The notes under the pieces are model-generated. The model ran no database searches and was not told the DNA's origin. It saw nothing but the letters and a program-made list of their open reading frames with translations. From positions 1-32,828 of the forward strand of contig ONQO01000038.1 in NCBI GenBank assembly GCA_900319995.1: a stretch of DNA of 32,828 nucleotides, written 5' to 3'. Positions 3,744 through 14,910 of the stretch are shown one piece after another. The translations under genes and the position numbers were made by a program. Source of the DNA: an uncultured Bacteroidales bacterium (lineage in GTDB: Bacteria > Bacteroidota > Bacteroidia > Bacteroidales > Paludibacteraceae). The number at the start of each line of letters is the position of its first letter. Positions within the stretch are counted from its first letter, which is position 1.

Positions 3744-4892
3744 ATGCGCGATAAATTGGATCCGACATATAATTATGCTGTGCAGGCAATCAAACAGGCT
3801 ATATTGAATAGTCAGTTGAGGGCTGCTCGTCATGTAAATGAAGAACAATTGGCGTTATATTTCGGAATTGGAAAATATATCTCGGATAATACTCGGAAGA
3901 ATAAATGGGGCACAAACGCGATAGAAAATATCAGTAAGCAACTAAGCATTGAGTTGCCTGGGTTAAAGGGCTTTTCTGGTACAAACTTGAAACTCATGCG
4001 ACTTTTCTATGAGTCATGGAACTCTTTGTTTAATTCGTCAGCCATGGCTGGCGAAATAGCAGAAAAAACGTCAGCCACGGCTGACGAAATGGACGAAAAT
4101 CAGAATTTGGTATTCTTATCGGATCGTTTGATGATGAAAAATCGTCCCTGTGCTGATGTTGAGATGTCGTGGAGTGACTTTTTTGCATTGGGTTTTTCGC
4201 TGCATACTGAGATATTATCTAAGACGGAAACATTGGAAGAACGTGCTTTTTATATTCATCAGACTGCGCTATATCATTGGAACAAATATACATTGAGGGA
4301 TAATTTGAAGGCTGATTTATTCCACCATCAAGATCAATTGCCTAATAATTTTGCGCACACTCTCCCGCAAAAGAACCAAACGCTTAAGGCTATTAAGATG
4401 TTTAAAGACGAATATATGCTGGATTTTATCAATGTTGAGCAATTGGGAGAGCATGATGAGGATATAGACGAAGCGGTGATAGAGCGTGAAATAGCGATGA
4501 ATATCAAGAATTTTATAATGGAATTCGGACGCTCTTTTACATATCGAGGTAATCAGGTACATTACGATAAATTGGGGCATAACCATTGGGTGGATTTGCT
4601 CTTTTTTAACAGAGAATTACAAAGTCTGGTGGTGATAGAACTTAAGAAGGGTGCGTTCAAACCCGCCTATTTAGGGCAATTGGCTGCATATCTGCGGATA
4701 TTGGATGATGAAGAGAAATTGCCGCATGAAAACCCATCAATAGGGATTATATTGTGTAAAGAAGCGGATAAGGCTTATGTGGAGTATGTGTTACAAGATT
4801 ACCAGAAACCGATGGGTGTCGCGACCTATAAGATACGTGAGCATTTGAAAGAATTGCTTCCTGATGAAAACAAGTTGAAAGAATTGCTATAA
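3744..4892 (+). CDS. YhcG/DUF1016 family PD-(D/E)XK nuclease-like protein
   Basis: 382 residues. The N-terminal half (IGKYISDN, WGTNAIENISKQL, GFSGTNLKLMRLFYE) matches the helical DUF1016 N domain; the C-terminal half is a PD-(D/E)XK fold with D284 in HWVDLLFF, then E299 and K301 in VVIELKKG, and a following GQLAAYL helix. Biological role is not established; family members are often accessory genes near restriction systems, but here the gene stands alone with no methylase or specificity gene beside it. Residues about 98-116 (SSAMAGEIAEKTSATADEM) are a variable linker encoded by two near-identical palindromic segments. No promoter of the type seen elsewhere was found upstream. The ATG at 3744 fits the family start. 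Confidence 0.88.
   Translation: MRDKLDPTYNYAVQAIKQAILNSQLRAARHVNEEQLALYFGIGKYISDNTRKNKWGTNAIENISKQLSIELPGLKGFSGTNLKLMRLFYESWNSLFNSSAMAGEIAEKTSATADEMDENQNLVFLSDRLMMKNRPCADVEMSWSDFFALGFSLHTEILSKTETLEERAFYIHQTALYHWNKYTLRDNLKADLFHHQDQLPNNFAHTLPQKNQTLKAIKMFKDEYMLDFINVEQLGEHDEDIDEAVIEREIAMNIKNFIMEFGRSFTYRGNQVHYDKLGHNHWVDLLFFNRELQSLVVIELKKGAFKPAYLGQLAAYLRILDDEEKLPHENPSIGIILCKEADKAYVEYVLQDYQKPMGVATYKIREHLKELLPDENKLKELL
4036..4086 (+). repeat. Two palindromic 18-mers inside the YhcG gene
   Basis: 4036-4053 and 4069-4086 are both of the form CGTCAGCC-2 nt-GGCTGACG, the first with one mismatch. They lie 33 bases apart, in frame, each followed by AAAT, and encode SAMAGE and SATADE in a linker between the two domains. 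Confidence 0.7.
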
Positions 4893-4948: not shown

Positions 4949-7900
4949 ATGAAAAAACTAAAACTTCTCTCCCTACTGATGCTGATTTGTTTCAGCGTGG
5001 GAAATGTGTGGGCGGATGATCCTGCTTCTGTAGGAACAACGCTATTTAGCGAGGACTTTAGCAGTTATTCTGCCAACAATGTTCCGAGCGGCTCGGTAAC
5101 AACTGCTACCGGTCGTGTTGTTTATGGTGGTGCTAATGTTACCTATGCTTGTACAGACGGAGGCTCCGCTACTAAAATTTATAACGAAACAACTGCTGGA
5201 GGAACAGCTCCCGAGATTTTGGTTGGGAAAAACACGGGTGTATTTTCAATCACTGGTATTCCTTCGGGAGGTGCACAAAAGATTACAGTTTCTTGGACAC
5301 AAAACAAGCAAGCTTTGGATGTGGCGCCTACTGGAACCGGTTATTCGGGTTCAGTTTCTGGAAAGCCAGCTAATGCGGGAAACAGATCATTCGACATAAC
5401 GGTTGCTGATGGCGCAGATGCAACTTTCACGCTTACCTTTGCAGCTACGGGTTCTTCTAACGTTCGTGTGGACAACATCGTTGTTACTGTTAAAACAGCG
5501 GGTGAAGGTGGTGCTCCTGCTAAAACTCTCACAAGCATTGCTGTTTCGGGCGCACCGACAAAGACTTCTTACTATGCAGGAGATAATTTTGACCCCGCTG
5601 GTTTGACTGTGACCGGCACATACAGCGATGCTTCAACTGCTCCTATTACTTCCGGTATTACTTGGTCTTATGATCCGTCACAGGAGCTAGCTCTCAATCA
5701 AACTTCTATTGGCGTAATAGCAACTGTTAGCGAGATAGCAAGTCCTAAAGTTAACGTAAGTATTACCGTTACAGAAGCTCCTGCCGCTGTAAACTATGAG
5801 AAAGTAACCGCTGAACCTGCAGATTGGTCAGGTGAATATTTGCTCGTATATGAGGCTGATGCTACGAATGCACGAGTTTGGAAAGGCGCAGATCAAGCTA
5901 ACAATTATGCAGAGGCGACGATTTCTGCTGGTGTAATCGCCGCTCCCGAAGGTGCAGCTGTGTTAACCATAGCTAAAGTGGCAGAATCCGATCCGGTAGT
6001 ATATACTATTATGGTTGGTGACAAATATATCGGTCAAACATCTGATGCAAATGGAATTAAGATTCAAACTACAGCCATTAACAATAGTATTTCGTATAAT
6101 GGAACAGATGCTGCTATTGATATTGTTGCTTCATCCGCTCACTTGAGATATAATAGTGCATCATCAAGCTATTTCCGTTATTACAAGTCGGCTACATACT
6201 CTTCACAGAAAAAGATTCAACTCTACAAAAAAGTAGATGGCACTGTAAAACCTGCTGCTGGTTTAGCATTTGAAACATCGGCCTACTTGGTTAAGGCTAA
6301 TGGATCTCTTGCAACACCGACTTTGAGCACGGCTGATGGCTTTGATGGTACTGTTACTTATGCAAGTAGTGATGCTGATGTAGTGGCAGTAAATACAACT
6401 ACAGGTGCTTTGACAATCAAGGCTGCTGGTAAGGCTGAGATTACTGCTTCATCTCTTGAGACAGAGAACTTCAAGGCCGGTTCGGCTAAATATACAGTAT
6501 ATGTAGCTGAGCAAGCTGGTACAGCTGAGGATCCTCTGACCGAGGCAAGTGCAAAGGCTTTGATTGATTTGGGCTGCACGCTGAACGCTCATGTGAATGG
6601 TATAGTTTTATCACAAAACTCTACTAATTTCACAGTTACTTTAACGGACGGTTTCCAATTCTACAAAGCAAAAGACCTTAATAATGTTGCTTTTGAAAGT
6701 GCTTACCTTGGTGCCGGTGACGAAGTAACGGCTGTCGGCGCTTTGAAGAAATTCAGTTCTACCTATGAATTGGACGAAGGATGTTATTTGACATTCTATG
6801 AACAAGCATCAACTCCTTTGACTTCTATTGCAAATGACGAAGCGAGCGCATACACTGTAGCACAAGCTCTCGGATTCGCAGCTAATCCGACTACTTATGA
6901 CTTAAGTGACATAGTTTATGTACGCGGTAAAGTTGCTATCGCTTCAACTGCTTTATTCAGTAAAAAATATTTGACCTATTCTATTTCGGATGATGGAACT
7001 ACCACAAGTGTTCTGAAAGTTTACAACGGTTTAGGCATTGACGGCGCAGCTTTCACCAGTAAAGATGACATTCTGGTAGGTGACGTCGTTGTTGTAAAGG
7101 GTAACTTAACCCAGTTCAATACAGAATTAGAGTTCGCAGCTAATAATGAATTGGTTTCAAAGAAACCGGTAGCAACCATTGCCATTGATAATATGGAGTT
7201 AGAATACGCAGAAGTAGCTACTATCTCTGCAACTATCACTCCCGCAGCGGCTGCGTCTACTGTTAAGTATAGCATTAAAGCAGGTAGCGATGATGTAATC
7301 ACATTGTCCGGAGACCAAATTACGGCAAAATCCGTAACTGGTACTGCAACTATCGTAGCAACTATTGCTGGTACAGATGATTACGAGGGCGCAACCAAAG
7401 AGTTCACGGTTTCTGTTGCTGAGGCTGACACTCGTAAGGTTGCTAATAGCCCTGCTACATTTACTACAACAAATGGAAATCTTGATCCTGCTGATATCGC
7501 TTATGCATCTTATCAAGGAGGCTCAAGCACCGCTCCTGCTATCTATAACGATGGTATCCGTTTGTATCAAATTAGCGGTTCAAATGACTTTGGAGGTTTC
7601 GTTACGATAACTGCTAAAACCGGTTGTACAATTGATGAGGTACAGATTACGACAACAAGCAAGTATTCAACAACCGTTGCGTACAGCGTAGATGGCAACG
7701 AAAATCTGTTGAAATCAGAAAGCGTTGCTGCTTCCAGTTCGTATACCACCGGTACAGGTTTGAATGTATCAAGTGTAAACATTCTCAACGTAGGAACCGG
7801 TAGCAGTGGTCGTTTGGAAATCGCTTCTATCAAGGTTTACTATACCGGTGAAGCGGCTACTATTGACCACTATGAGTTAGGAGGAACATATCAAACCGCA

Positions 7901-10084
7901 TTTATGCAGGATGAAGACTTCAACCATACAGGTCTGATTGTTTATGCTGTATACGATGCTCTCGGCGAGAATAAGGTGGATATTACTTCTATGTGTACGT
8001 TCTCTGAGCCGGATATGAGTACAACAGGTGAAAAGACTATTGAGATTACCTACAATGAAGCAGTTGTTGCATCGTATACGATTAACGTTGCTGCTGATTC
8101 TCGTAAGGTGGCTAATAGCCCTGCTACATTCACTACTGTTAGCGGTGATATGACACCGAATGATATAACGTTTGCTTCTGATCAAGGTGGCGCAGGTACT
8201 GCACCGCAAAACTATAATGATGGTATCCGTTTGTATCAGGCACCGAGTGCTGATGCTATTGGCGGATTTATCACTTTGAAGGCTAAGAAGGGTTGCACGA
8301 TTGATCAGGTTAAGATCACAACTACCAACACTTATGCAACTACTGTTGCTTATAGCGTTGACGGTAATGAGAATCTGTTAGGTGAAGAGGCTGTGGCTAA
8401 ATCCAGCACTTACACTACTCCTTCCGGCTTGAATGTAGAAAGTGTGAATATCGTGAACAAAGGAACCGGTAGCAGCGGTCGTCTGGAGATTGCTTCTATC
8501 AAGGTTTGGTACACAGGTGACGCTCTTGCTGTTGACCACTACATCTTGGGCGGTACTTATGCTACCGAGTTTGAGCAGTATGGCGAGTTCAATTATGAAG
8601 GTCTGACAGTAACCGCTGCATACGATGCTGGTGAGACTATCACAGAGGCTGTTACCGGCTTTACGGTTGAGGCTGATTTGAGCACTGCGGGTAACAAGAA
8701 GGCTGAAGTTATGCTCAATAGTGTTAAGATTGCTGAGTACGACATTACTGTTAATCCTTCTGCAAAAGAGGATCCAGCATTGGCTTATAGCCCGACTTCG
8801 GTAGTTCTTACGTTGGGTGACGCTTTGAGTGCTCCGACGTTCAGCAATGATTACAAAGTATCGCCGATTTCTTATGAGTCGAGCAAACCGGCTGTGGCTA
8901 CTGTTGATGCAGAAGGTAATATCGCTCTCGCAGGTGGCTGTGGTACTGCTGTGATTACCGCATCGTTCGCAGGAGATGATGATTATATTGACAGTGAAGC
9001 AACATTCACTATTACGGTTAACGAGCCTGTTGAGGACTTGACTGGCACTTGGGTTCTGGCAACATCTGTTGCTGCTGGTGACAAAATTATCATCGGTGCT
9101 ACATACCAAGACGCAACAAAGTCAATGGGTGCACAAAACGGAAATAACCGTTTGGCTGTAGCAAGCACACTTGATGCTGGTGTTCTCTCTCCGGGAGAAG
9201 GAACAAAGGTATTTACACTTGTGGACGCTGGTGACGGCAAGTTCGCTATCCAAGCATTGAATGGCAACTATCTAAGCGCAGCCGGAACAGGAACAAGCAA
9301 TTACCTGAAAGAAGCGGCTGATTATACTGCTGATAATGCAAAGTGGAGTATTTCGATTGATGGTGAGGGTGTTGCAAGTGTCGTTGCTTTGTCCAACAAC
9401 CGCAATGCCATGCAATACAATAGTGGTAGTACATTGTTCTCTTGCTATGCTTCTGTTACGTCTCAAAGACCGATTAATATCTATAAGAAAGATGCAGCTC
9501 CGGAACCGGTTTACGAGACAGTTCGTGCTGGTTTGACACCAAATAACTACTACACCGTTTGCTGGCCGAAGGCAATGACTGCTATCAAGGGAGGTACGCT
9601 GTGGTCGTTCGCAGGTAAGGATGAAAACATGGCATATCTCATCCAAGAAAACGCTCCGCTCGTTGCCGGTCGTCCGTATATCATCTATGCTACAGATACC
9701 AAACTGGAAGCTGTGGTTGAAGGTGATGATGCAGCGGCAGGCTCTAACAATGGTCTCTATGGTACGTTAGATTACATGGACGCAGCCGCTTTGTCGGCAG
9801 CAGGTGCAACATACATGCTGAAGAGCAATGAGCTTCGTCCGATAGGTACGAACAACCACCTCGACGCAAACCGTGCTTATGTGATATTGGATAACATCTC
9901 TGGTGGCGCTCCGGCCAATGTTCCTGCCCATATGGTACGCAAGATGCCGTTGCAAGGTCAGACTACTACCGACATTGATGCTCTCAACGCTTCCGAAACT
10001 CCGGTTAAGATGATGATTGACGGTCAACTCTTCATCCTCCGCGGCGAGAAACTCTATGACGCTACCGGACGTTTGGTAAAATAA
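4949..10084 (+). CDS. Giant secreted multidomain surface protein
   Basis: 1711 residues. Signal peptide 1-22 (hydrophobic core LLSLLMLICFSVG, cut near VWA-DD). Then beta-rich modules read by eye: a jelly-roll-like unit (about 33-183); a bacterial Ig-like unit (about 194-283, YAGDNFDPAGLTVTGTY); a unit with WSGEYLLVYEAD (about 284-430); another Ig-like unit; two OB-fold-like units (about 530-760, HVNGIVLS and VYVRGKVA); a 223-residue block repeated twice (829-1051 and 1052 to about 1270); an Ig-like stretch; a unit with GTWVLATSVAAGDKIII; and a C-terminal domain (1521-1711) shared with the protein at 10901. No catalytic motif is seen. It ends in FILRGEKLYDATGRLVK, the tail also found on the protein at 10901 and, in variant form, on the amylase at 29946; a secretion or anchoring signal is my inference. 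A microprotein gene follows after 81 bases. Confidence 0.85.
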   Translation: MKKLKLLSLLMLICFSVGNVWADDPASVGTTLFSEDFSSYSANNVPSGSVTTATGRVVYGGANVTYACTDGGSATKIYNETTAGGTAPEILVGKNTGVFSITGIPSGGAQKITVSWTQNKQALDVAPTGTGYSGSVSGKPANAGNRSFDITVADGADATFTLTFAATGSSNVRVDNIVVTVKTAGEGGAPAKTLTSIAVSGAPTKTSYYAGDNFDPAGLTVTGTYSDASTAPITSGITWSYDPSQELALNQTSIGVIATVSEIASPKVNVSITVTEAPAAVNYEKVTAEPADWSGEYLLVYEADATNARVWKGADQANNYAEATISAGVIAAPEGAAVLTIAKVAESDPVVYTIMVGDKYIGQTSDANGIKIQTTAINNSISYNGTDAAIDIVASSAHLRYNSASSSYFRYYKSATYSSQKKIQLYKKVDGTVKPAAGLAFETSAYLVKANGSLATPTLSTADGFDGTVTYASSDADVVAVNTTTGALTIKAAGKAEITASSLETENFKAGSAKYTVYVAEQAGTAEDPLTEASAKALIDLGCTLNAHVNGIVLSQNSTNFTVTLTDGFQFYKAKDLNNVAFESAYLGAGDEVTAVGALKKFSSTYELDEGCYLTFYEQASTPLTSIANDEASAYTVAQALGFAANPTTYDLSDIVYVRGKVAIASTALFSKKYLTYSISDDGTTTSVLKVYNGLGIDGAAFTSKDDILVGDVVVVKGNLTQFNTELEFAANNELVSKKPVATIAIDNMELEYAEVATISATITPAAAASTVKYSIKAGSDDVITLSGDQITAKSVTGTATIVATIAGTDDYEGATKEFTVSVAEADTRKVANSPATFTTTNGNLDPADIAYASYQGGSSTAPAIYNDGIRLYQISGSNDFGGFVTITAKTGCTIDEVQITTTSKYSTTVAYSVDGNENLLKSESVAASSSYTTGTGLNVSSVNILNVGTGSSGRLEIASIKVYYTGEAATIDHYELGGTYQTAFMQDEDFNHTGLIVYAVYDALGENKVDITSMCTFSEPDMSTTGEKTIEITYNEAVVASYTINVAADSRKVANSPATFTTVSGDMTPNDITFASDQGGAGTAPQNYNDGIRLYQAPSADAIGGFITLKAKKGCTIDQVKITTTNTYATTVAYSVDGNENLLGEEAVAKSSTYTTPSGLNVESVNIVNKGTGSSGRLEIASIKVWYTGDALAVDHYILGGTYATEFEQYGEFNYEGLTVTAAYDAGETITEAVTGFTVEADLSTAGNKKAEVMLNSVKIAEYDITVNPSAKEDPALAYSPTSVVLTLGDALSAPTFSNDYKVSPISYESSKPAVATVDAEGNIALAGGCGTAVITASFAGDDDYIDSEATFTITVNEPVEDLTGTWVLATSVAAGDKIIIGATYQDATKSMGAQNGNNRLAVASTLDAGVLSPGEGTKVFTLVDAGDGKFAIQALNGNYLSAAGTGTSNYLKEAADYTADNAKWSISIDGEGVASVVALSNNRNAMQYNSGSTLFSCYASVTSQRPINIYKKDAAPEPVYETVRAGLTPNNYYTVCWPKAMTAIKGGTLWSFAGKDENMAYLIQENAPLVAGRPYIIYATDTKLEAVVEGDDAAAGSNNGLYGTLDYMDAAALSAAGATYMLKSNELRPIGTNNHLDANRAYVILDNISGGAPANVPAHMVRKMPLQGQTTTDIDALNASETPVKMMIDGQLFILRGEKLYDATGRLVK
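7433..8758 (+). repeat. Tandem in-frame duplication within the giant gene
   Basis: Two blocks with a 669-base period (starting at 7433 and 8102) encode RKVANSPATFTT, YNDGIRLYQ, VAYSVDGNENLL and SSGRLEIASIKV in both copies, each followed by a DHY-LGGTY Ig-like unit. The first half of each block is much more alike than the Ig-like half. Confidence 0.85.
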
Positions 10085-10165: not shown

Positions 10166-10294
10166 ATGATGAAGACATATGAAATACCGAGTGTAGAATT
10201 AACGCAGTTAATGCCGGGTACAATTGTTTTGGCGGGTAGTCCGTCTGGAATTACCGTGAATCCCACTCCTATTGATAATGAAGGCGGCGATTAA
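10166..10294 (+). CDS. PIDNEGGD microprotein 1 (42 residues)
   Basis: Begins MMKTYEIPSVELTQ and ends PIDNEGGD. Too short for most gene callers. Evidence that it is real: a second ORF at the same relative place behind the second giant gene shares Y--P-VE-T-L, AGS, N and the last eight residues, with intergenic DNA that otherwise differs. Both starts follow a purine-rich GGA (AAAGGATAGAATT before ATG). No signal peptide or membrane segment is visible; the tail is acidic. A 14-bp stem terminator follows 29 bases after the stop. From memory, Bacteroidales genomes hold many short ORFs of the general form Y--P followed by an AGS-like motif, with unknown function; I could not check this. A peptide precursor, chaperone or signal are open possibilities. 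Confidence 0.65.
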   Translation: MMKTYEIPSVELTQLMPGTIVLAGSPSGITVNPTPIDNEGGD

Positions 10295-10322
10295 TCCCTT
10301 CCCGCCTATATGGCGAACATAC

Positions 10323-10363
10323 CCAACAGCCCTGCCCTTTGCGGCGGGGTTGTTGGTGTTTAT
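10323..10363 (+). terminator. Terminator after giant gene/microprotein 1
   Basis: Stem CCAACAGCCCTGCC (10323-10336) with GGCGGGGTTGTTGG (10343-10356): 14 pairs including two G-T wobbles, 6-base loop, followed by TGTTTATT. Confidence 0.8.
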
Positions 10364-10511
10364 TCGTCCAAAAATTACCCAAAATAAGCCCAAAATGAAG
10401 ATTTCTTGCTTTTTTTGAAGAAATATTTGGATAACAAATTGTACTAAAACTTTCCAGTATAATCAAATTTGGAACGAACTATATTTGTGTACTTTGAATA
10501 TAGAAGGAAGA

Positions 10512-10621
10512 GGCTGACAAGCTGACGGCAGACACCCTTTTTTTAAAATACATACACATGTACGCGCGTGTGTGAGTTATATAACGAGGGTGTCAGCCTG
10601 TCAGCCGTCAGCCTGTCACCC
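10512..10621. repeat. Long imperfect inverted repeat of GTCAGCC units
   Basis: The left arm (10512-10538) is nearly the reverse complement of the right arm (10587-10621). Both start from AGGGTGTC at the inner end and contain GCCGTCAGC; the right arm has an extra 8-base AGCCTGTC unit. The 48-base centre has alternating purine-pyrimidine runs (ACATGT, ACGCGCGTGTGTG). Confidence 0.75.
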
Positions 10622-10679
10622 AAGAAAGGTCCACTCCCCCTCAACTATCACCCGATTACCCGTTAACTACGACTCAAAA

Positions 10680-10710
10680 CCGCGACCTCACCGCGACCTC
10701 ACCGCGACCT
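10680..10710. repeat. 11-bp tandem repeat (CCGCGACCTCA)
   Basis: Two full units (10680-10690, 10691-10701) and a 9-base partial (10702-10710). It shares unit length and the CCGCG start with the CCGCGTGATTC array at 20113. Confidence 0.8.
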
Positions 10711-10820
10711 GTCTGTATTGTGAAACCGCTTGCGTATTTGCGTTCATGCGTACGAATCTATTCTAAATTCCATTCAAACAGGCCAATCTTCCTGCAAAAA
10801 TAAAATTTCTCACCAAAAAT

Positions 10821-10851
10821 TTGCGTATATGCTTTTTTTGTTGTATCTTTG
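10821..10851 (+). promoter_or_regulatory. Promoter of the 1236-residue surface protein
   Basis: TTG at 10821-10823 (in TTGCGTAT), 20 bases, TATCTTTG at 10844-10851; expected start near 10858, giving a leader of about 40 bases. Confidence 0.8.
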
Positions 10852-10900
10852 CGACCAAAATTGAAATTCAAACCAATTATTAACATAATTTTATAATATC

Positions 10901-13900
10901 ATGAAAAAATTTCTTACTCTCCTCGCTGCCCTGATAGTGACGGGTAGCATGACGGTTGTTCAGGCGGATACTTGGACGCCTGCCGGCACACCGGCATCCG
11001 TTTTTACAGATGAATGGGAACCGAATACTCCGGCGAATGACATGGTGCTCTCAAACGGACTGTATGTGTTTGCCAAAAGGAGCGACTTCGCGCAAACTCC
11101 GATTCAATTCAAAGTCTGCAAAGACCATGCATGGACGACTGCTTATCCGGGAAGCAATTACAGTTTCACTATTCCGGCGGGTGCAAAACACCTTATTATC
11201 ACGTATAATCCCAGCGGAAATGCGGTGAATGCGTTCGCTATTTCCTCAATGACGGTTGCTGGAGATAACGCTACTTTGTTCGGTGATACATGGAAGCCGG
11301 CGAACACAGCCAATGACATGGCATTGCAATCGGATGGCACCTATAAGTTTGAAAAATCGGGTGTAGCATTATCCGCCGGCATGGTCAATTTTAAAGCCTG
11401 TGCCAATCACGGATGGGATAATGCTTGGCCGAGTTCCAATTATTCGCTTTCTATTCCGGAGTCAGGAAACTATACCATTACCATCACTTTCAATCCTGCT
11501 ACACTCTCTGTTTCCGCTACGGCAGATTTAGAGGAAGCAGTTGTCGTTATTCCTACCATTCAACTGCATAGTAACATTACGAATCCGTCTTGGGAATCTT
11601 CAGCAAATTTCGCTCTCGCAGGAAATGAAGAAACAGCAAGTTTGACTCTGACAGGTGTGACGAAAGGAAATTATGAGTTTGGCGTAAAGATTGATGGTAC
11701 TTGGACTTCCAATGGGTCAGGTTTCACTCGTGCAAATCCTTCTCACACCATCGCAGCCGGTAGCGGCAACTGCACCTTCAATGCCGATAGAAATGGTGAT
11801 TACACCTTCACATGGACGTACGCAACGAATACATTGAGTGTTACTTATCCGGCAGTACCTGCGCAGAGCGTGGAACTGACGGGGCTGAGCGCGCAAATAT
11901 TGAAAGGTACTGAGGTTACTTTCACGGCATCCTCTTCCGGTATCGACGAGCCGGGATATCGTTTCTACGTGAAAGAGAAGAACGGTGGTTACGGTAGTGC
12001 CGTTGCATCCTATACTTTCGATGCAGTAGGCGAATATGTGGTAAAAGTGGAAGCTTTGGAATACAATACCGGAGATCCGGTAGCTGACGATGAAAGCGAA
12101 GTTCTGGTTTATGATACGCACACCTTTACCAACGGAACAACCATTTATGTGGACTTCTCGGCAATGACCGAAGGAACAAAGGGTGTTAATTATCCGAAAG
12201 TCGGAGAGGTAGGGTTGGATTATGATGACGCAGGTGCAGGAACACTCAAGACGGTTGCATTTAATGCGAACGTTACATGGACAACGAACGATGTATTTAT
12301 TAAAACCGAAAAAGCAGGTTGGGCAGAGTTGAAATTCATTGTTCCTGGAGACGGACAGAACTGTGTCGTGGTTGCTGCAGACGGTGCTTCCTACACTTGG
12401 GGCATCTATTCAGGAGGGGAACCTGAGCATACATATACTGTGGCAGGACCGGAAACATTCTTTAGCACAAATTGGGATGCTACAAATACAGACAACGACA
12501 TGGCGTTGGATGATGGCTTATATAAACTGACTAAAGCGAACGTTGTCGTTGCTGACGAAACAACGATAGAGTTTAAGGTCTGCCAAGACCACGCATGGAC
12601 CGTTGCTTTCCCCGGAGATAATTATTCGCTTTATTTTGCTAATGGAGGCACATACTCTATCACCTATACCTTTAATACGGAAGGAAATGCTGTCGGTGTG
12701 GATATACCTTCGTTTGTAGCAATGCATGGTAACTTTGCAGGCGTGGACTCCTGGGCAGATACCAAGAATTTTGTAGTTGCTCCGGGCGGTGCTACTGCCA
12801 GTTTGACAATGACACTTGCTGCACGTGACAATTATGAGTTCGGTATGCGACTTCGTAGCAACGGTAACTGGACTTCCAATGGAGCATCGTTCTCGCGCGC
12901 AACACCCTCTGCTTCTATTGTTGCAGGAGAAGGTAATATAACACTGAATGCTGACGTAGCCGGTGAATATACATTCACGTGGACTTTTGCAACCAATACC
13001 CTGTCCATTACCTATCCAGAAGGCAGCTCCTCGACTCCCACAGCTGTTGCAGCTAAAGGTGGTTGGGACAGTTGGGCGGATCCGCTGAACTTTACTCCGG
13101 CATTGGACGGATTGACAGCTACTGCTACTTTGTCTGAGCTTCCGGCAGGCAACTATGAATTCAAACTCATTATTGGAGAAACAACGGGTGACGCGGCAAC
13201 TTGGGATTGGCGCAGCAACGCAAATGCATACCACCGTTTCTGGACATCTGCTTCGGGAATCACATCAAACAATGATTTGAATATGGAACTTCAGGCAGAT
13301 GCCGACGGCGATTATATCCTCACTTGGACCTTTGCAACCAATGCGCTCTCTATCACGTTCCCAGAAACACCGAAAACGGGTACCAATGAAGTGAAATTCT
13401 TCCCGCCGCGTACGGAAGAGCACCCGTGGAATAGTGTCTATGTATATGCTTGGCGCCGTACAGCCGGTGAAGATGCAAGGCTTACTGACGAATGGCCCGG
13501 AGATCTCGCAACCAAAGACGGAGAATGGTATAAAGCAACCATTGCCAAAGGCGCTTGTGCCATTTTCCACGACAACGCCGGCATGCAAAGTTTCGATATT
13601 GAGAACGTCCAGAAGGATGTTTGCTACATCTCGAATGAGATTGACTATACGGAGCATGAAGCCGATCCAGAGAAACCCGTCAAGGCAAAGTTCGTTGAAA
13701 ACTGCACTGTAAGTTATTTCATTACCGGTGACGAGGCTATCATGGGAGCCGGCAACGCTTGGAAGGCTGATCTCGCTGAGCGTCAGTTAGACGGCAGCGA
13801 CGAAATCACGCTTTCCAACCTGCCGGCAGGTATCTATGAGTTCAAACTCACCAACGGCAGTTGGGCATGGAGCATCGGCGGAAAAGAACACTTGAAAGGC

Positions 13901-14611
13901 GGTGATTGTTCGAATGTGGCTGTTACCAGCGGAAGTGGTAATGTGAAATTCAAAATCGAAAGTACTCAAGACGTTACAATCACCTATTTCCCTGCAACAC
14001 AACAAATATGTTTGAGTGCAGAGACCATGCTGCCCTTTGAGGATGTCCGCACGGGTCTGACTGCCGATAATTACTACACTGTCTGCTATAACCGTGAGAT
14101 GAAACAAATACGCGGCGCATCCCTCTGGTCATTCGCAGGCAAGGATGAAAACTTCGCATATCTCGTTCGTGAAGACGCTCCGTTTGCTGCGGGTAAACCT
14201 TTTATCATCTATGCCGAATCCGACAAACTTGAAGCTGTCCTTGACGGTAGCACGGAAGTGGCGGGCTCGAACAACGGTCTCTATGGGACGTTGGTATACA
14301 TGGATGCAACCGCTCTATCAAACGCAGGTGCAACATATATGTTGAAGAATAATGAACTCCGTCCTATTGGATCGAACAATCACCTCGCTGCTAATCGTGC
14401 ATACATTAAGTTGAACGAGATTCCTGACGGCGGCGCACCTGCAGGGTTGCCCAAACACCGGGTACGCGCTATGCCGACGCAGTCAAACGTTGCTACCGAC
14501 ATCGATGCTATTAACGCTTCCGATGCGCCGGTTAAGATGATGATTGACGGAGAACTATTCATCCGCCGCGGCGAGAATCTCTATGACGCAACAGGTCGTC
14601 TGGTAAAATAA
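10901..14611 (+). CDS. Giant secreted protein with starch-binding-like modules
   Basis: 1236 residues. Signal peptide 1-22 (MKKFLTLLAALIVTG, cut near VQA-DT). Modules by eye: three units with an F-D-W/NDMAL/FK-C--H-W pattern (about 23-115, 118-210, 515-600) like the X25-type domain of pullulanases; three units of the SW-------NF...NYEF...YTFTWT-ATN-LS-T-P form (about 217-315, 603-705, 712-820), a carbohydrate-binding look; a PKD/Ig-like unit (320-400); a CBM26-like unit (about 828-910, VYVYAWRR, DEWPG, GEWYKATI, IFHDNAG); another X25-like unit (930-1040); and the shared C-terminal domain (about 1046-1236) ending IRRGENLYDATGRLVK. Inference: an extracellular starch or glycogen binding protein working with the amylases of this window. 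It has its own promoter, and a microprotein gene follows after 71 bases. Confidence 0.85.
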   Translation: MKKFLTLLAALIVTGSMTVVQADTWTPAGTPASVFTDEWEPNTPANDMVLSNGLYVFAKRSDFAQTPIQFKVCKDHAWTTAYPGSNYSFTIPAGAKHLIITYNPSGNAVNAFAISSMTVAGDNATLFGDTWKPANTANDMALQSDGTYKFEKSGVALSAGMVNFKACANHGWDNAWPSSNYSLSIPESGNYTITITFNPATLSVSATADLEEAVVVIPTIQLHSNITNPSWESSANFALAGNEETASLTLTGVTKGNYEFGVKIDGTWTSNGSGFTRANPSHTIAAGSGNCTFNADRNGDYTFTWTYATNTLSVTYPAVPAQSVELTGLSAQILKGTEVTFTASSSGIDEPGYRFYVKEKNGGYGSAVASYTFDAVGEYVVKVEALEYNTGDPVADDESEVLVYDTHTFTNGTTIYVDFSAMTEGTKGVNYPKVGEVGLDYDDAGAGTLKTVAFNANVTWTTNDVFIKTEKAGWAELKFIVPGDGQNCVVVAADGASYTWGIYSGGEPEHTYTVAGPETFFSTNWDATNTDNDMALDDGLYKLTKANVVVADETTIEFKVCQDHAWTVAFPGDNYSLYFANGGTYSITYTFNTEGNAVGVDIPSFVAMHGNFAGVDSWADTKNFVVAPGGATASLTMTLAARDNYEFGMRLRSNGNWTSNGASFSRATPSASIVAGEGNITLNADVAGEYTFTWTFATNTLSITYPEGSSSTPTAVAAKGGWDSWADPLNFTPALDGLTATATLSELPAGNYEFKLIIGETTGDAATWDWRSNANAYHRFWTSASGITSNNDLNMELQADADGDYILTWTFATNALSITFPETPKTGTNEVKFFPPRTEEHPWNSVYVYAWRRTAGEDARLTDEWPGDLATKDGEWYKATIAKGACAIFHDNAGMQSFDIENVQKDVCYISNEIDYTEHEADPEKPVKAKFVENCTVSYFITGDEAIMGAGNAWKADLAERQLDGSDEITLSNLPAGIYEFKLTNGSWAWSIGGKEHLKGGDCSNVAVTSGSGNVKFKIESTQDVTITYFPATQQICLSAETMLPFEDVRTGLTADNYYTVCYNREMKQIRGASLWSFAGKDENFAYLVREDAPFAAGKPFIIYAESDKLEAVLDGSTEVAGSNNGLYGTLVYMDATALSNAGATYMLKNNELRPIGSNNHLAANRAYIKLNEIPDGGAPAGLPKHRVRAMPTQSNVATDIDAINASDAPVKMMIDGELFIRRGENLYDATGRLVK

Positions 14612-14682
14612 GATGTCGAATGTTGGTATTCCCGGATTACGGTAACCCGATAACACGAAATACCGAAAAAAAAGGAATCATT

Positions 14683-14841
14683 ATGAAAATTGAAAATAAT
14701 CGCGCCCTTGCGGCAGTGAAAAAGAATTATATTCAGCCGAACGTAGAGGAAACGCTGTTAATAGGCGGTTCCACGATTATGGCAGGAAGCAATACTCTTA
14801 AAATTAACACCGATCCTATTGATAATGAAGGCGGTGATTAG
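14683..14841 (+). CDS. PIDNEGGD microprotein 2 (52 residues)
   Basis: Begins MKIENNRALAAVKKNYIQP and ends PIDNEGGD. The frame is open back to an ATG at 14620, but I chose 14683 because it follows AAAGGAATCATT, matching the spacing before microprotein 1, and because the extra residues would be unlike the partner. It shares Y--P-VE-T-L, AGS, N and the ending with microprotein 1 but has a longer basic start. The last eight codons are almost identical in DNA as well, which suggests either duplication with the giant gene or strong constraint. It is followed by a strong two-way terminator. Function unknown. Confidence 0.7.
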   Translation: MKIENNRALAAVKKNYIQPNVEETLLIGGSTIMAGSNTLKINTDPIDNEGGD

Positions 14842-14872
14842 TCACAATCGACAGCCCTTCTCAGGGCAGAAT

Positions 14873-14910
14873 AACAATCAAAGGCAGCCTTTCCGCTGCC
14901 TTTGATTGTT
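14873..14910. terminator. Two-way terminator
   Basis: Perfect 16-bp stem: AACAATCAAAGGCAGC (14873-14888), 6-base loop, and its complement (14895-14910), followed by TCT on the + strand. It sits between the + strand microprotein gene and the end of the - strand prenyltransferase gene, so it can serve both. Confidence 0.85.

Follow-up and report, generated by a model that had tools for sequence, protein, structure and literature searches.

Two giant genes for secreted-type proteins lie in a 32,828-nucleotide stretch of DNA from an uncultured Bacteroidales bacterium of the Paludibacteraceae (the window; contig ONQO01000038.1, our contig C104 of the 2.6-Mb genome G000). Each is followed by a gene for a microprotein, and the locus raises the question of what such small products do. 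The original prediction described a repeated two-gene unit closed by a strong terminator, and this arrangement was confirmed. The microproteins, of 42 and 52 residues, begin 81 and 71 nucleotides behind the stop codons of the giants, and each is followed by a stable hairpin (−31.0 and −26.5 kcal/mol; z −5.2 and −8.3; 0 of 200 shuffles equally stable). The coordinates are collected in Table 1. Our reading, to which we give a probability of about three in four, is that the two microproteins are precursors in a ribosomally made, clipped peptide system that depends on a recognition element (RRE) for ribosomally synthesized and post-translationally modified peptides (RiPPs), and that this system of Bacteroidales is related to the linear polyphosphorylated peptides (LPPs).

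Anatomy and constraint of the microproteins

The closest named matches to the second giant come from two rumen "uncultured Bacteroidales" genomes, RUG14494 (locus L011) and RUG644 (locus L012). Each of these loci holds two giants, and a microprotein again stands behind every one, with the endings EEITGN, SFIPD, and GGTGG; the more distant giants at L013 and L014 have no microprotein behind them. A profile search of 61 congeneric genomes detected the family in 42 genomes at E ≤ 0.005 and in 51 at E ≤ 5, with up to 22 matches per genome at the looser threshold and 13 in G000. Homologues at matching positions are present in L011, L012, and many congeners, and short Y--P...AGS open reading frames (ORFs), mentioned in the original prediction for Bacteroidales, do exist in the genus and the order according to the profile searches.

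The conserved part of these proteins is the amino terminus, with the pattern KKxYxxPxxE followed by two hydrophobic residues, two small residues, and Ser. When 36 microproteins are aligned, no column is invariant except the Tyr and the Pro of YxxP. YxxP is kept in 92 of 92 sequences from the genus and L011/L012, which were collected with a profile that itself favors YxxP and, like the set of 36, exclude duplicates and two presumed chance matches that lack the motif (G000:C88, E 0.244; G118:C5, E 0.323). These 92 sequences follow KK-x-Y-x-x-P-x-x-E, with the Glu in 65. Counted from the Tyr, a hydrophobic residue stands at +10 in 95% and at +16 in 97%, a small residue at +18 in 85% and at +19 in 83%, and Ser at +20 in 67%. 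The first Ser from offset +16 onward falls at +18 to +20 in 101 of 116 sequences, of which 24 were hand-chosen partly via the YxxP pattern and contain it by construction.

The tails vary widely in length and composition (PSGITVNPTPIDNEGGD is an example). Among the homologues read, the ending PIDNEGGD occurs only in the window; the other homologues end differently, and PIDNEGGD is encoded by a local 30-nucleotide repeat outside of which the two window tails differ. The idea that it is a conserved recognition tail was rejected, and the likely recognition element is the N-terminal YxxP. The ratio of nonsynonymous to synonymous differences (pN/pS), pooled over non-independent pairs within nine groups of related copies, is lower in the N-terminal part (0.30) than in the C-terminal part (0.50). 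The microproteins are under protein-level constraint, as the original prediction supposed, and the constraint is weaker in the tail. Family profile scans gave no convincing known family for them. One microgene (L011:8925-9056, L012:8765-8896) is identical in DNA over the ORF and ~20 nucleotides 5′ of it, with clearly different flanks, which hints at recent exchange or gene conversion.

Co-occurrence with an RRE and a signal-peptidase-like protease

A PqqD-type RRE scores above cut-off in 44 of the 61 congeneric genomes; the G000 copy is on contig G000:C34. The family match is PF05402 (E 2.4e-14). Among solved structures, the RRE profile has a single relative at E ≤ 0.1, TfuB1 (6jx3, E 0.0012), and the lasso RRE model NF033530 matches at E 0.0025, under its cut-off. 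Microprotein and RRE occur together: at E ≤ 0.005, 41 genomes have both, 1 has the microprotein only, 3 have the RRE only, and 16 have neither (p = 7.6e-11, kinship ignored). In four congeners (G021, G198, G177, and G172) a microprotein lies on the RRE contig itself, 6–12 kb away.

A signal-peptidase-like protease was detected by profile in 43 of the 61 genomes, all of them RRE-positive, and of the 44 RRE genomes only G196 (66% complete) lacks it. The protease gene precedes the RRE gene in 14 of 14 loci read, and match positions place it upstream on the same strand within 350 nucleotides in 40 of 43 genomes. Eleven of the 43 matches span one stop; five of these eleven were read as ORFs (L157, L158, L161, L162, and L163), with lengths of 143–215 residues. 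Ser30, His72, and Asp92 are invariant in 11 aligned proteases. The archaeal-type signal peptidase I model TIGR02228 matches five of the six scanned with E 3.9e-5 to 1.4e-10, under the curated cut-off, and does not match L204. The G431 copy also matches S24 peptidases above cut-off (PF00717, 2e-6), and the protease profile has no solved relative at E ≤ 0.1. Directly before the protease–RRE pair, an exported-looking protein of 177–200 residues with a CNCF/CNCY-type end is encoded at L151:6941-7474 and also at L152–L156 and L163.

The association extends to other families of the order. Among 295 genomes, the microprotein was found at E ≤ 1e-3 in nine, eight of which carry the RRE (44 of 295 overall; p = 1.1e-6). 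With the window's genus removed, the RRE is present in six of seven microprotein genomes from five families (p = 3.9e-5), and at E ≤ 0.02 the count is 8 of 11. The microprotein and the RRE are 3.5–6 kb apart in G379, G431, and G458. Five clusters outside the genus (L204, L205, L206, L208, and L209) all contain an NTP_transf_5 protein (PF14907, 7e-31 to 1.3e-44) and an ABC exporter. NCBIfam models point weakly to an HprK-type kinase in all five (best E 6e-8), those that match in L204 being confined to the ScmC and PEPCK types. The archaeal signal peptidase model matches the protease in four of the five, not in L204.

Resemblance to linear polyphosphorylated peptides

The description of LPPs (LppA, B, S, K, N, and D) dates from May 2026 (Popov et al., Nat Commun 2026; PMC13381572). 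Their gene set comprises the SpI-like peptidase LppS (S29, H68, and D93), the discrete RRE LppB, the HprK-like LppK, the NTP transferase LppN, and the MsbA-like LppD. The precursors have a YxxP leader and variable C-termini, LppS cuts in vitro only together with LppB, and phosphorylation is on core Ser3. The authors describe LPPs as restricted to Bacillota and their biological role as unknown, and the word stem "bacteroid" does not occur in the text. YxxP is given as a leader motif bound by lasso-type and LPP RREs in PMC12710340 and PMC13381572.

The Bacteroidales genes share with LPPs a YxxP leader, a conserved N-terminus, a variable C-terminus, and a discrete RRE. They share an archaeal-type signal-peptidase-like protease adjoining the RRE, whose Ser-His-Asp set (S30/H72/D92 versus S29/H68/D93) matches LppS by motif and spacing, a comparison made without aligning LppS itself. 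Counterparts of the HprK-like kinase, NTP transferase, and MsbA-like exporter are present in the five clusters outside the window's genus, the kinase by weak matches. The two differ in layout: LPP clusters hold one to three precursors inside the cluster, often at capsule loci (same source), whereas a Bacteroidales genome can have as many as 22, scattered and for the most part next to genes for secreted proteins, and the loci read in the window's genus lack an exporter. The microprotein system probably works like LPP, as a Bacteroidales branch of it. We write "works like LPP" rather than "is an LPP" because, apart from YxxP, the leader is different, with the Ser two positions farther from the Tyr. 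The HPr-rel-A system and SynChlorMet cassette (TIGR04352, TIGR04353, and TIGR04249) also combine a PqqD-type protein with an HprK-like kinase and give weak profile matches, but all of these are far under the curated cut-offs.

We found no paper on these microproteins or on an RRE and signal-peptidase-like pair in Bacteroidales in a literature search that left subscription papers and preprints largely uncovered. The text of PMC10885120, on leader proteases, does not mention S24, S26, signal peptidase, or LexA.

The pathway that we propose starts from the observed gene order, with the precursor gene close behind the giant gene and a hairpin after the pair, which would be cotranscribed. The PqqD-type RRE, encoded elsewhere in the genome, would bind the leader KKxYxxPxxE, as the motif and the co-occurrence suggest. 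The adjacent protease, with Ser30, His72, and Asp92, would then cut within the hydrophobic-A-G-S segment and free the variable Gly/Pro/Ser-rich tail as the product. The cut may fall after AGS by signal-peptidase habit, or before AGS by analogy with LPPs, which would make the Ser core residue 3. By the same analogy, genomes with an HprK-like kinase may phosphorylate the conserved Ser. In the window's genus, the loci read have the protease and the RRE, some with a kinase; in complete clusters the ABC exporter would release the product. In a last and speculative step the peptide would reach the surface and work with the large protein encoded beside it.

The LPP core gene set, so far called Bacillota-restricted, appears in Bacteroidales of several families. 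The precursors can be listed by the dozen, mostly as neighbors of secreted or lipoprotein-like genes, a clue to the purpose of such peptides, and the reading would let a large class of overlooked ORFs (~40–60 codons) be annotated. We consider this a substantial finding: in Bacteroidales, a peptide system of RRE and protease whose many precursors are scattered and linked to genes for secreted proteins, with its biochemical steps and role predicted from sequence.

Genomic neighbors and competing explanations

Both giants have a signal-peptide-like start and the common C-tail IDGxLFIxRGExLYDATGRLVK. This tail (28 residues) was found in all 61 congeneric genomes with 3–110 matches each, the 110 in G000. 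In the window giants it is covered by neither Pfam nor NCBIfam models; it is an unnamed, very abundant C-terminal tail. The neighbors of 73 congeneric copies were read, hand-picked from the listed profile matches of 13 genomes with the window's own two excluded. Of these copies, 64 lie within 300 nucleotides downstream of a tail-bearing gene, which bears out the repeated two-gene unit; the median gap is ~40 nucleotides (62 copies), and the upstream genes encode at least 332 residues as seen, many being cut off at the edge of the sequence read. The nine uncounted copies comprise one that is tail-linked under another ORF caller (G162:C46), two with an intervening gene and the tail match farther upstream (G179:C2 and G188:C12), three directly before a lipoprotein-like gene (G162:C10, G198:C13, and G155:C29), one at a contig edge (G177:C63), and two others (G175:C14 and G198:C8). 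A gene of 186–205 residues with a similar C-terminus stands before the microprotein, with the tail-bearing gene farther upstream, at L068 (G021:C15), L143 (G179:C2), and L130 (G188:C12); the G021 copy weakly matches the 23S rRNA intervening-sequence protein (PF05635, E 2.8e-5, under cut-off).

The neighbor changes with the taxon. In G141, from another genus of the same family, 14 of 14 copies read (of 16) precede a lipoprotein-like gene that starts 148–170 nucleotides past the match start, and a scan of one product assigned it to the FISUMP type (PF09603, E 7.9e-27). In a third family (G313, G412, and G493) many copies lie behind large secreted-type genes, most of which end in another C-tail (NGKKxxxK type), and some copies precede lipoprotein-like genes.

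This gene order suggests a partnership between the peptide and the neighboring surface protein. In its fullest form, which we put forward tentatively, a single RRE and protease would mature up to ~20 peptides per cell, each encoded beside one large surface protein and acting as its dedicated partner, whether as ligand, cap, or covalent decoration. If true, LPP-like biosynthesis would extend to Bacteroidota, and these would be, to our knowledge, the first RiPP-type peptides that serve to equip surface proteins.

A number of observations weigh against precursors in an RRE-dependent system of this kind or against the partnership. The LPP leader YxxPxVLxHQxIxFETxxS has its match here only in YxxP and in a Ser that follows hydrophobic residues; VLxHQxIxFET is not shared, and the Ser is mostly at Y+20 rather than Y+18. 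The association in the genus weakens at E ≤ 1 or 5 (43 both, 8 microprotein only, 1 RRE only, 9 neither; p = 1.2e-5). At E ≤ 0.005 the exceptions are G153, G159, and G193, with an RRE and no microprotein match, and G187 (77% complete), with a microprotein and no RRE; at E ≤ 0.02 G200 is also an exception. These statistics ignore phylogeny, and the RRE-negative congeners may be one clade. The predicted absence of the RRE from the L013 and L014 genomes failed, the RRE being present in four of four named genomes. Across the order, the search detected no microprotein in 36 of the 44 RRE genomes, with a profile that derives mostly from the window's family and is perhaps insensitive, and G493, G258, and G440 have a microprotein match without an RRE. 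In G199, G202, and G159 the protease and the RRE do not form a neat pair. Among the 14 RRE loci read in the genus, four have a kinase, one has NTP_transf_5, and none has an ABC exporter nearby, the rest of the genomes not having been searched. Even where the RRE is present, most tail-bearing proteins lack a microprotein. Matching between the microprotein tail and the giant C-tail, apparent by eye (rho 0.09), is below that with the giant's body (0.26) and gone once the latter is controlled for (79/80 pairs); coupling beyond shared descent was not found (partial rho 0.009, p 0.38).

The explanation that best survives beside a partnership is that the association with the giants is passive: the precursors would lodge behind well-expressed genes or move as small cassettes, and the peptide would act independently, for example as a signal or an antimicrobial. 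We regard this as possible, though short of probable. The L011/L012 copy that is identical over its whole ORF between different flanks fits it, as do the variation of neighbors between taxa and the missing tail-to-tail coupling; against it, most copies in several families neighbor a large gene of the secreted type or a lipoprotein-like gene.

It is unlikely that the RRE and the microprotein co-occur through shared ancestry only, the microprotein serving as a regulatory leader or a structural element with no relation to the RRE. Statistics that ignore kinship, RRE-negative genomes that are possibly one lineage, and the many RRE genomes of the order lacking a detected microprotein all leave room for it, but other families show the same association together with physical linkage, the motif fits an RRE leader, and the constraint is at the protein level.

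The original prediction offered the microprotein as a helper in export, folding, or anchoring of the giant. The tight, recurrent gene order is what such a dedicated cytoplasmic helper would lead one to expect. Nevertheless we find this very unlikely, since tail-bearing proteins are in every congeneric genome and far outnumber the microproteins (110 versus 13 matches in G000), the presence of the microprotein follows the RRE and not the tail, and the G141 copies stand before a lipoprotein-like gene instead. The 17 RRE-negative congeners illustrate the second point: all carry C-tail matches (3–68 each), while one (G187) has a clear microprotein match, seven have a single weak match (E 0.017–0.66), and nine have none. 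What holds of the original interpretation is the two-gene unit, the selection, and the guess of a processed peptide, which we count as supported with cleavage predicted from the motif and the protease; the C-terminal recognition tail is unsupported, and a helper in export or folding is unlikely.

A canonical lasso peptide precursor is scarcely credible and was rejected. The hallmark of a YxxP (or WxxP) leader with a discrete PqqD-type RRE, as in paeninodin-type lasso peptides with B1 RREs (TfuB1/FusB1), has its counterpart here in both the motif and the RRE gene, with binding predicted, and the RRE resembles lasso RREs in the sub-threshold NF033530 match and the TfuB1 match. The lasso accessory genes include an HPr kinase and a nucleotidyltransferase (PMC7533575). 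The lasso_cyano model is touched by 4 of 36 microproteins, with a best E of 0.074 that is not significant. The B2 protease (PF13471), however, is above cut-off in none of the 61 genomes, and only G157 and G200 match it weakly. Next to the RRE stands a signal-peptidase-like protease, and the tails vary widely in length and composition. No Asn-synthetase-like macrolactam cyclase was noticed while the RRE loci were read, no profile search having been made for it.

The E..M..MAGS of some members resembles the double-glycine consensus, which speaks for a secreted peptide that an ABC transporter with a C39 peptidase (PCAT) would cut at the GS of AGS. We give that reading almost no credence and reject it within the genus sample: GG-motif peptides with PCATs, likewise small leader-tail peptides, are reported in Bacteroidales (PMC10352776), but none of the 61 congeneric genomes gave a match to Peptidase_C39, which was detected in 8 of 14 control genomes, including a Bacteroides.

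Table 1. Features of the two giant–microprotein units, in window positions.
Feature	Positions	Strand	Description
Giant secreted-type protein 1	4949..10084	+	1711 aa; signal-like N-terminus MKKLKLLSLLMLICFSVGNVWA; C-tail VKMMIDGQLFILRGEKLYDATGRLVK
Microprotein 1, proposed RiPP-type precursor	10166..10294	+	42 aa, MMKTYEIPSVELTQLMPGTIVLAGSPSGITVNPTPIDNEGGD
Microprotein 1, proposed leader ending at AGS motif	10166..10240	+	Y5, P8, S25; predicted cut site within VLAGS
Microprotein 1, variable tail, proposed core	10241..10291	+	first core residue approximate
30-nt repeat coding PIDNEGGD and stop, copy 1	10267..10296	+	28/30 identical to copy 2
Terminator-like hairpin 3′ of microprotein 1	10323..10356	+	
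Giant secreted-type protein 2	10901..14611	+	1236 aa; C-tail VKMMIDGELFIRRGENLYDATGRLVK
Microprotein 2, proposed RiPP-type precursor	14683..14841	+	52 aa, MKIENNRALAAVKKNYIQPNVEETLLIGGSTIMAGSNTLKINTDPIDNEGGD
Microprotein 2, proposed leader ending at AGS motif	14683..14790	+	Y16, P19, S36; predicted cut site
Microprotein 2, variable tail, proposed core	14791..14838	+	first core residue approximate
30-nt repeat coding PIDNEGGD and stop, copy 2	14814..14843	+	
Hairpin 3′ of microprotein 2	14874..14909	+	15 bp, then TTTCT; unlisted by terminator pattern scan

The reading frame of microprotein 2 is open already from an earlier ATG at 14620, which would give 73 residues; an A/G-rich stretch lies 5′ of 14683. 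The type IX secretion system (T9SS) type A domain TIGR04183 was not matched by giant 1, matched giant 2 at E 0.13, under cut-off and away from the C-terminus, and was absent at E ≤ 0.01 from five giants encoded in G313 and G412; no search was made for T9SS genes. The predicted structure of the C-terminal 154 residues of the giants was unusable (mean predicted local distance difference test score 45.8). Profile scans found Big_3/Big_2 traces under cut-off in giant 1, and six pullulanase X25-like stretches and a starch-binding module CBM26 in giant 2. A YhcG/DUF1016 PDDEXK nuclease gene lies directly 5′ of giant 1, at 3744-4892 of the window.

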